The translations under genes were made by a program, and so were the position numbers. 46,506 nucleotides of DNA, taken from contig JAFQTK010000015.1 in assembly GCA_017409065.1 (NCBI GenBank), positions 1 to 46,506 on the forward strand. The letters run 5' to 3'. The DNA comes from a bacterium (GTDB lineage: Bacteria > Cyanobacteriota > Vampirovibrionia > Gastranaerophilales > Gastranaerophilaceae). The stretch's first letter is position 1, and every line of letters starts with the position of its first letter. Under the pieces are notes generated by a model. It searched no databases. It saw only the letters and a list, made by a program, of their open reading frames with translations, and had not been told where the DNA came from. Positions 37,234 to 38,815 of the stretch are shown here, one piece after another.

Positions 37234-37866
37234 GTGAAACTGGCAGTATTCGATTTTGATTCAACTTTAATGGATGGAGAAACCATTGAATTTTTAGCAA
37301 AAGAGTTTGGAATAGAAGAACAAGTTAAACAAATTACAAACAAAGCTATGCAAGGAGAGTTAGACTTTTTTGAAAGTTTAACAACCAGAGTAAAGTTACT
37401 AAAAGGCATGCCTGTATCAAGGGTTAATGAAATCTGTAAAACCCTTCCACTTATGAACGGTGCAAAAGATGTCATAACAGAATTAAAAAACAAAGGCTAC
37501 AAAGTTGTTTGCCTATCAGGCGGGTTTAAAAATGCAACGGTTCCAATTTGTGCTGAATTAGGAATTGATGCGGAATTTTCCAACATTTTGCACGAAAAAG
37601 ACGGAATACTTTCAGGGCTTGTTGGTGGTGAAATGATGTTCAGTTCCAGCAAAGGTGAAATAATACAAAGAATCCAAAATTTACTTGGGGTAACATATGA
37701 CAATACAATTGTGGTTGGCGATGGAGCTAATGATTTAAGCATGTTCAAATATGCAGCCCAAAGAGTTGCTTTTTGTGCGAAACCAATATTAGAAAAAGAA
37801 GCAAATATAATCATAAAAGAAAAAAACTTAAGATTACTACTTGACGAGATAAATACTTTAGGGTAA
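37234..37866 (+). CDS. serB: Phosphoserine phosphatase-like HAD hydrolase
   Basis: The 210-residue product has the four HAD motifs of the SerB group: DFDST (7-11) with the nucleophile Asp7 and acid Asp9, CLSGGF with Ser95, Lys140, and VGDGANDLSM (161-170). The cap sequence LTTRVKLLKGMP is also SerB-like. The reaction would be dephosphorylation of O-phosphoserine to serine in the last step of serine synthesis. Related enzymes use other phosphoesters, so the symbol is probable, not certain. The GTG start has GGAG 7 nt upstream. The product would feed serine, which the L-serine dehydratase encoded at 44813-46365 degrades. Confidence 0.85.
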   Translation: MKLAVFDFDSTLMDGETIEFLAKEFGIEEQVKQITNKAMQGELDFFESLTTRVKLLKGMPVSRVNEICKTLPLMNGAKDVITELKNKGYKVVCLSGGFKNATVPICAELGIDAEFSNILHEKDGILSGLVGGEMMFSSSKGEIIQRIQNLLGVTYDNTIVVGDGANDLSMFKYAAQRVAFCAKPILEKEANIIIKEKNLRLLLDEINTLG

Positions 37867-37894: not shown

Positions 37895-37922
37895 ATTGAT
37901 AATTTAATAGTGGGCCTGTGGC
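37895..37922 (+). repeat. 28-bp direct repeat, copy 1 (tRNA-Leu leader and 5' end)
   Basis: An exact 28-base segment is repeated at 38012-38039, 117 nt further on. It spans 17 bases of AT-rich leader with TTGATAAT and the first 11 bases of the tRNA-Leu gene. It marks a duplication of the tRNA 5' end. Confidence 0.9.
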
Positions 37923-37996
37923 ACTCTGCCGACGAGAAATGACTAAATGTCATTTCGAGGAGAGGTTGGTAGACGCCTTGTTTAACTCAGGGTAGG
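37912..37996 (+). pseudogene. Broken tRNA-Leu copy interrupted by a palindromic element
   Basis: The copy starts GGGCCTGTGGC, identical to the intact tRNA-Leu at 38029. After 11 bases it is interrupted by 43 nt (37923-37965) containing a palindrome, then resumes with TTGGTAGACGC of the D arm. After that it diverges. The following bases could fold as an anticodon arm with a UAA loop, but there is no matching 3' acceptor strand before 38012. It is therefore a degenerate copy, perhaps of another leucine isoacceptor. The right boundary is approximate. Confidence 0.6.
37936..37964 (+). repeat. Palindromic element, copy 1 (within the broken tRNA)
   Basis: Arms GAAATGAC (37936-37943) and GTCATTTC (37949-37956) enclose TAAAT, followed by GAGGAGAG (37957-37964). 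The core TGACTAAATGTCA and the GAGGAGAG octamer both recur in reverse complement at 38181-38211. It resembles short dispersed palindromes of the GTCATTTCGAG type known from many bacterial intergenic regions. Confidence 0.65.
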
Positions 37997-38011
37997 TGCT
38001 AAGGTTCGATA

Positions 38012-38039
38012 ATTGATAATTTAATAGTGGGCCTGTGGC
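38012..38039 (+). repeat. 28-bp direct repeat, copy 2 (tRNA-Leu leader and 5' end)
   Basis: This is the copy that belongs to the intact tRNA-Leu gene; identical to 37895-37922. Confidence 0.9.
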
Positions 38040-38109
38040 GAAATTGGTAGACGCACTAGACTTAGGATCTAGCGCCTTCGGTGTGAGAGTTCGAGTCTCT
38101 CCGGGCCCA
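38029..38109 (+). tRNA. tRNA-Leu (anticodon UAG)
   Basis: The 81-nt gene folds as a class II tRNA. The acceptor GGGCCTG pairs with CGGGCCC (one G:U), with discriminator A at 38109. The D arm contains TTGGTAGACGC. The anticodon stem CTAGA/TCTAG encloses the loop CTTAGGA with anticodon TAG. A long variable arm (around CGCCTTCGGTG) and the T arm GAGAG-TTCGAGT-CTCTC complete it. CCA is not encoded. It reads CUA and, by wobble, other CUN leucine codons. A UUCG-loop terminator follows at once. It lies between two partial copies of itself. Confidence 0.95.
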
Positions 38110-38132
38110 AATTTAAGACTCCTTCGGGAGTC
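38097..38132 (+). repeat. 36-bp direct repeat, copy 1 (tRNA-Leu 3' end and terminator)
   Basis: An exact 36-base segment comprising the 3' strand of the T stem, the acceptor 3' strand and the terminator hairpin is repeated at 38230-38265. After one mismatch the match continues for about ten T/A-rich bases. Confidence 0.9.
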
Positions 38133-38139
38133 TTTTTTA
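38115..38139 (+). terminator. Rho-independent terminator of tRNA-Leu
   Basis: AAGACTCC and GGAGTCTT form an 8-bp stem closed by a UUCG loop and followed by a run of T. Confidence 0.93.
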
Positions 38140-38150
38140 TTATAGACTCG

Positions 38151-38180
38151 AACTAATAGTTGCTTCGCAACTATTGAGTT
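38151..38180 (+). repeat. Perfect hairpin in the segment after tRNA-Leu
   Basis: AATAGTTGC (38155-38163) and GCAACTATT (38167-38175) pair perfectly over a TTC loop; flanking AACT and AGTT extend the stem past one unpaired base. There is no T run, so a terminator is unlikely. It lies just before the second palindromic element. Confidence 0.75.
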
Positions 38181-38220
38181 CTCTCCTCAAAAACGACGTG
38201 ACATTTAGTCACCTCGTTTT
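38181..38220 (-). repeat. Palindromic element, copy 2 (inverted)
   Basis: GTGAC and GTCAC (38198-38202 and 38208-38212) enclose ATTTA; outside one unpaired C on each side, AAAACGA pairs with TCGTTTT (38190-38196 and 38214-38220). CTCTCCTC at 38181-38188 is the reverse complement of the octamer in copy 1. Shared core and octamer in opposite orientation suggest two ends of one element. Confidence 0.65.
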
Positions 38221-38229
38221 CAAGGGCTC

Positions 38230-38265
38230 CTCTCCGGGCCCAAATTTAAGACTCCTTCGGGAGTC
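38230..38265 (+). pseudogene. tRNA-Leu 3'-end fragment with duplicated terminator
   Basis: This is copy 2 of the 36-bp repeat. CTCTCCGGGCCCA (38230-38242) equals the last 13 bases of tRNA-Leu; the UUCG hairpin follows (38248-38265). The rest of the tRNA is missing on its 5' side. The AT-rich tail runs into the stop codon of the convergent TPR gene at 38273. Confidence 0.85.
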
Positions 38266-38272
38266 CTTTTTA

Positions 38273-38815
38273 TTATTTAGTAGTTTTAACCTTATCCAAG
38301 CACTCAACTATATTTTGATATTCTTTATAATTAGCTTCGTTTTTAGCTGATGGGAAAATAGTTGTACGCATATCATATAACATTTTTTGTGTTTCAAATA
38401 TATCAACAGCCTTATCATAATCTTTCATTTCATAATAAGTTTTGCCCAACTCTATTTGAATCATAGAAGGAGGCTTTGGATCAACTAAAATTTTTGTATT
38501 TTTAGATTCTACATTTGCTGCACGTTTTAATGTTTTTACAGCCTTGTCATATTGTTTTGTTTCTCTATATAGCTTGCCTAAAAGTGTTAACTCTTGTTCA
38601 TTTTTCGCAGCCCCTAATTTTTGTATTTTTTGTAATTTTTGGTCATTAGTATAATTTTCGACATTTAGGTATCGGTAAGCTCCCTCCAAAGAGTCAACAG
38701 AAAGCGAATCAGACGAATCGGTTTTATTTGAAGTGGTAAAAGAATTAACCATCTGAAATTCTTTATGTTTCAAGAAGGGTTTTGAATTAACTAAAGTTAC
38801 AGGTTGTATCAACAT
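38273..38815 (-). CDS. Small TPR-repeat protein
   Basis: The 180-residue product has an N-terminal polar segment of about 45 residues rich in Ser, then TPR-type helices: LTLLGKLYRETKQYDKAVKT near residue 76 and IQIELGKTYYEMKDYDKAVD near residue 120. There is no signal peptide. Two or three repeats are too few to predict a partner. Its stop codon lies at the very end of the duplicated tRNA terminator, so the duplication reaches this gene but does not cut it. Intergenic 38816-38974 upstream holds nothing recognisable. Confidence 0.7.
   Translation of the reverse strand: MLIQPVTLVNSKPFLKHKEFQMVNSFTTSNKTDSSDSLSVDSLEGAYRYLNVENYTNDQKLQKIQKLGAAKNEQELTLLGKLYRETKQYDKAVKTLKRAANVESKNTKILVDPKPPSMIQIELGKTYYEMKDYDKAVDIFETQKMLYDMRTTIFPSAKNEANYKEYQNIVECLDKVKTTK

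Follow-up and report, generated by a model that had tools for sequence, protein, structure and literature searches.

The tRNA-Leu(UAG) locus at positions 37895-38276 of the window, that is, of the whole 46,506-nucleotide stretch of DNA from a member of the Gastranaerophilaceae that was analysed, can be read, with a probability of about 0.5, as a resident tRNA gene to which two mirror-image foldback units of one repeat family were added independently. Judged from the genomes searched, this family appears to be specific to Gastranaerophilales-type bacteria. A literature search returned no paper linking the clade with such repeats, and we found no previous description of the family; its closest precedent is the set of 178-bp repeats at the tyrT/rttR locus of E. 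coli.

The features of the locus are collected in Table 1. ARAGORN and Rfam call a single intact tRNA there, with the anticodon UAG (Rfam score 58.7 bits), and it lies between partial copies of itself, as a preliminary description of the sequence had stated. The exact 28-nt direct repeat reported in that description is present (37895-37922 and 38012-38039, spacing 117), and its upstream copy is indeed broken after tRNA base 11 by a 43-nt palindromic insert, hp1. The two palindromes of the locus are related in opposite orientation, also as reported, with 18-nt arms that agree at 89%. For the repeat on the 3′ side the spacing of 133 is correct, but the repeat is longer than the 36 exact nucleotides given and covers 47 nt at 98% identity (38097-38143 and 38230-38276). 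Two elements had been overlooked: the broken 5′ copy resumes after the insert with a piece of the D arm, and a short stretch of the T arm recurs as its reverse complement on the 3′ side. In the 5′ unit, S1, hp1 and the second hairpin with its closing strand are predicted to fold into a three-way junction (-41.9 kcal/mol, z -5.1). A scan of the locus against Rfam gave the tRNA plus one sub-threshold match and no other known RNA family; the rtT RNA (rttR) had no match at E ≤ 1.

Table 1. Features of the tRNA-Leu(UAG) locus and its upstream neighbour, in window coordinates
Feature	Position	Strand	Basis
HAD/SerB-like phosphatase gene, upstream neighbour	37234..37866	+	ORF list; same gene end before plain tRNA-Leu in G001
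AT-rich box TTGATAATTTAATA, boxA-like, in first leader copy	37896..37909	+	pattern match
S1, copy of tRNA-Leu bases 1-11 (GGGCCTGTGGC)	37912..37922	+	sequence repeat
hp1, palindromic insert ACTCTGCCGACGAGAAATGACTAAATGTCATTTCGAGGAGAGG	37923..37965	+	family pattern match at 37924-37965
D-arm 3′ half of tRNA, copied (TTGGTAGACGC)	37966..37976	+	direct repeat
Second hairpin and closing strand	37977..38011	+	fold with S1 and hp1
Second leader copy, box at 38013-38026	38012..38028	+	direct repeat and box pattern
Resident tRNA-Leu(UAG), intact	38029..38109	+	ARAGORN and Rfam
Intrinsic terminator of tRNA, GACTCC TTCG GGAGTC, T-run	38117..38138	+	sequence
Reverse-complement copy of tRNA T arm (GACTCGAACT)	38145..38154	+	sequence; plan shared by other 3′ units
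Small perfect hairpin AATAGTTGC-TTC-GCAACTATT of 3′ unit	38155..38175	+	sequence
Degenerate palindrome, hp1 class, reversed orientation (GGTGACTAAATGTCACGT core)	38183..38229	-	inverted pair; other 3′ units
tRNA 3′ end and terminator, copied	38230..38276	+	direct repeat; other 3′ units

The palindrome has a core that reads ACTCTGCCGA, a variable perfect stem with one of a few loop types, and GAGAGG, and its ends are ACTCTGCC and GAGAGG, not a GTAG tag. In a phylum-wide draw of genomes, it occurs in 124 of the approximately 130 from the window's family. Elsewhere in the phylum, the one sister-family genome drawn has it and the other 161 genomes do not; matches to a reversed-pattern control were near zero. 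Almost all the named matches listed from a collection of 84,980 species are Candidatus Gastranaerophilales. In a search with the locus, the stretch 37918-37972 recurs many times in the window's own genome, and among relatives it is also found in most other genera, in both cases often in tandem. About 86 copies of the palindrome are present in the richest genome (G198). Each species is represented by a single genome, in most cases a metagenome assembly, and the arrays often lie at contig ends. As the same architecture is seen at more than 100 loci of independent genomes, a chance origin is excluded, and this recurrence also argues against an assembly error. Palindrome types are genome-specific, a loop type being common to 0.535 of same-genome pairs against 0.308 after permutation (maximum 0.42 in 2,000 permutations). 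In the palindromes of many genomes, a G-G mismatch recurs at ∼5 bp from the loop (AGNTGAC...GTCANGT class), a hint that the members of this class share an ancestor. Carriage by phages was considered and rejected: the 24 pattern matches in viral contigs have, nearly all, little or no matching stem (best 6 bp, one of 10) and are presumed to be due to chance.

Many copies of the palindrome lie beside tRNA genes. In a set of 248 collected copies, partly biased by the search patterns used, 178 lie at most 400 bp from a tRNA gene, and almost all of these point at the gene: they share its strand when they precede it and have the opposite one when they follow it. The window's own genome is free of this pattern bias; of the 13 copies there, 8 have a detected tRNA as their neighbour and 4 are found in REP-type repeats. 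Upstream of tRNA genes, 111 arrays of 1-4 units each were extracted at 11 tRNA species, namely Met/Ile2(CAU), Lys(CTT), four Leu and three Pro anticodons, Val(GAC) and Ile(GAT). Their units are built in a constant order, with a tRNA start of ∼11 bases, the palindrome, a D-arm piece, a short antisense piece of the cognate tRNA, usually a box TTGAAAATTAAATA, and a leader, after which comes either the next unit or the intact tRNA. Of 93 loci, 80 have a duplicated tRNA start that stops at base 11-12, other end points being bases 8, 20 and 27. The antisense piece is specific to the neighbouring gene: a piece of at least 8 nt is found in 40% of units for the cognate tRNA and in 6% for other isotypes, and one of at least 9 nt in 23% and 2%, respectively. 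Mirror-image units, with the last ∼11 tRNA bases and the terminator, stand behind tRNA-Gln, Phe, Met and Leu genes. In many loci the outer limit of the duplicate is the mature tRNA end, or a position a few bases off; some duplicates are bounded by the terminator, and longer ones take in the box. Most loci other than that of the window have a unit on one side only, the 5′ units stack in tandem, and the unit middles are mostly 25-110 nt long and non-coding. An intact tRNA gene adjoins the unit at all listed loci; if the units were tRNA-integrating elements of the integrase type, its intact end would have come with the element.

The box that precedes the array-bearing tRNAs, and that is present in both leader copies of the window, corresponds to the pattern TTGANAAYTNAATA, which matches the genome 20 times, compared with 3 matches of the reversed control. 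It is also found before one tRNA-Lys(UUU) that has no array but a clear promoter and a hairpin (L259, contig C7 of G000), and it resembles the Gram-positive boxA. Arrays at tRNA-Leu(CAA) (G000 C50/C147, L261, L270-L272) and tRNA-Arg(ACG) (C113, L264) have the same succession of start, insert, antisense and box, with an insert that is not the ACTCTGCC palindrome, which means that the palindrome is not essential to the unit plan. The antisense pieces in these G000 arrays (L261, L270-L272, L264) reach up to 18 nt of perfect match.

Plain counterparts of the occupied genes exist in close relatives. The preliminary description had envisaged a relative with one uninterrupted tRNA-Leu and without the extra sequence, and the congener G001 is such a case, with a plain Leu(UAG) gene behind the same HAD-phosphatase gene; empty and occupied alleles at orthologous sites, as looked for in transposons and miniature inverted-repeat elements (MITEs), are thus observed. 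Pro(UGG) is plain in the congener G002, and the Phe and Met(CAU) genes are without units in both G001 and G002; these comparisons concern orthologous or same-isotype genes, with full synteny shown for some but not for Met. Unit occupancy varies among species of one genus. The palindrome is also found away from tRNA genes. A REP-type repeat, CGTCATTCTGAGC...GCGAAGAATCT, is present in the window's genome as 37 uninterrupted copies, and in 4 copies (L251, L252, L253, L254) the palindrome occupies its loop; other loop variants of this repeat are GTTA and GAGTGAAACGAA. Different palindromes are found inside arrays with near-identical flanks (L135, L194). The presence of the same palindromes in REP loops and of different palindromes within near-identical flanks implies that the palindrome acts as a loop-replacing module.

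An origin that we put at even odds is that of a small palindromic module, either non-autonomous and mobile or propagated by template switching, whose surviving events are those that duplicated the outer gene end. The module would take the place of loops, whether the D-loop or T-loop of a tRNA or the loop of a REP-type repeat. Survivors would be the events that duplicate the outer gene end, i.e. about 11 bases plus at most the leader or terminator, and selection would retain only those leaving a whole tRNA. The broken end, the palindrome and the antisense piece would then end up outside, the resident gene would stay whole, and the leader box (on the 5′ side) or the terminator (on the 3′ side) would stay beside it. 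Tandem arrays could form later by unequal recombination or by repeated events, and the sense-antisense-sense order may be the remnant expected of template switching at a hairpin. We infer that the module is mobile, that template switching or insertion duplicated the gene end, and that the host draws no benefit from it. No transposase or recombinase could be tied to the palindrome, and neither coding cargo nor an integrase was seen beside the units or between the partial and the complete tRNA. A RAYT-driven spread, as for REP sequences, was rejected because the Y1 genes are neither co-distributed with the palindrome nor flanked by it: Y1/RAYT genes were not found in the copy-rich genomes G000, G011 and G021, and only 1 of 24 Y1 loci has a flanking palindrome copy. 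The fixed-length target-site duplication of a transposon or MITE is not seen either, as the duplicate extends from the end of the gene as far as base 8, 11, 20 or 27; a duplication that begins at the gene end whatever the insertion point does not correspond to fixed-length transposition. A broader proposal is that the units represent a clade-wide class of gene-end-capping mobile DNA, in which palindromes enter a tRNA ∼11 bases from either end and copy the target end in sense and antisense while the gene is rebuilt; this is tentative and rather doubtful. In that case, the limit of the duplicate at the mature tRNA end or at the terminator would point to RNA- or R-loop-guided copying, a process that is not known for bacterial repeats.

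Other explanations have to be weighed against the palindromic module. A miniature integrative element, in which a site-specific recombinase would insert a ∼100-bp circle at tRNA base ∼11 from either end, would carry the restoring gene end together with a leader or terminator of its own, leaving the broken copy as an attL/attR remnant. The crossover point, the restored gene, the replacement box or terminator and the mirror symmetry are all consistent with such an element, and after integration of known elements at tRNA genes, one partial and one complete copy of the tRNA are present (PMC9897764). However, each unit holds the sequence of its own tRNA, antisense included, for 11 tRNA species, the crossover point is variable, the units show no coding cargo or integrase, and the palindrome also occurs in REP loops, where no gene end accompanies it; this explanation is unlikely. 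Two further readings come from the preliminary description. Three tandem tRNA-Leu genes, two of them decayed, would account for the partial tRNA sequence on either side of the intact gene, but the 5′ units have no trace of the anticodon, variable or T arm (at least 10 nt in 1 of 145), and tRNA 3′-part sequence in the unit middles is at background only (mean match 5.2 against 5.0 for other isotypes). Moreover, the S1 copies are nearly intact and the remainder is wholly gone, the same sharp boundary recurs at 11 tRNA species in many genera, and a single gene occupies the site in the congener G001. The shared boundary and the shared palindrome together refute decay, the probability of which is very small. 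The other reading was that of one ∼300-bp element with inverted ends that carries the intact tRNA-Leu, and the oppositely oriented palindromes flanking the gene agree with it. Its insertion-like character is retained, but a single element carrying the tRNA is highly improbable: the tRNA is the resident gene, present at the syntenic place in G001 without flanks, most loci have one-sided units, and tandem 5′ units occur.

The question of whether the units act as DNA or as RNA bears on a last explanation, according to which they are RNA devices. The unit would be a leader domain in which the broken 5′ copy and the antisense piece compete for pairing with the tRNA, tuning its maturation or transcription, and the box would serve for antitermination as a boxA-like site of NusB/NusE. 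For the 5′ units, the transcribed strand gives the better fold (z -3.85, and -3.01 for the other strand; better in 69 of 93), which hints at RNA-level selection, the predicted three-way junction of the window unit is stable, the boxA-like box is enriched by tRNA leaders, and in the predicted fold the 3′ acceptor strand is taken up by S1 (P 0.80). In contrast, the mirror units, which follow the terminator and have the opposite strand, fold without strand bias, and the same genes occur in congeners without units. A self-insulating leader, in which the unit would guard the tRNA from mispairing, failed, as natural middles gave the acceptor stem no more protection than shuffled middles did (p 0.32 and 0.53); the minimum free energy (MFE) structure of the tRNA alone is not a cloverleaf, and MFE pairs were therefore not used as a measure of tRNA folding. 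Mismatches in the palindrome stems (3 G-T and 6 A-C) show no G-U excess, compensating changes occur in 8 of 16 stem pairs of the aligned set, and both palindrome ends are conserved. Such Watson-Crick stems are as expected of a double-stranded DNA palindrome. In our reading, the units originated at the DNA level, any selection at the RNA level on transcribed copies is weak, and an RNA device is decidedly unlikely.

Several known systems share part of these properties. The E. coli tyrT/tyrV system (rttR RNA, tpr) also has tandem repeats beside a tRNA gene with the tRNA-gene end included; by coordinates, tyrT has three 178-bp repeats at a spacing of 178, the last copy extending 19 bp into the tRNA-Tyr end. 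This is a single locus, with repeats on the 3′ side only and no shared palindrome, whereas the window family involves many tRNA species and both gene ends, its units are mirror-symmetric and include an antisense piece, and its palindrome is clade-wide. REP sequences and the GTAG- and CGTC-tagged palindromes are short and dispersed, single or clustered, and the CGTC types are without a dedicated transposase (PMC3733652). The window family is likewise a short dispersed palindrome with many copies per genome, but it sits in tRNA loops, with the gene end duplicated, and has no RAYT association. REPINs, foldback pairs that multiply within a genome (PMC3116915), belong to a REPIN/RAYT system, whereas the window family is not co-distributed with Y1 transposases. 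The Rickettsia palindromic elements are, as here, clade-specific palindromes that enter genes; they differ in being 100-150 bp long and in residing in protein-coding genes, with no gene-end duplication or tRNA arrays described (PMC3767692). The attL/attR sites of tRNA-integrating phages and ICEs resemble the present units in the partial and complete tRNA copies and in the restoration of the gene by the element (PMC9897764). These phages and ICEs, however, measure kilobases and encode an integrase, whereas the window units are ∼90-130 bp long, have no gene and are often stacked.

tRNA genes are essential, and the usual view is that large integrases strike one of their ends. Here, a repeat family of ∼100 bp has colonised many tRNA genes, at both ends and throughout a whole bacterial family, and has left these genes alive. 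If mobile, it would be an unusually small element with a built-in sparing of its target, and the spread of palindromes that have no transposase would become a directly testable question. In practical terms, the arrays break metagenome assemblies, and the resulting tRNA fragments can mislead annotation tools.

A few loci deserve separate mention. A contig-end copy (L033) was at one point considered an insertion in the RNase P RNA gene (rnpB), a candidate that was rejected as its flank is the start of an initiator tRNA. At another contig end (L034, G000 C99), a tandem 176-bp repeat contains the same GTGACATTTAGTCAC palindrome and a terminator copy next to the end of a gene. Finally, a dense cluster of divergent tRNA genes (L036, G000 C43), possibly of phage or plasmid origin, includes a second tRNA-Leu(UAG) of different sequence.
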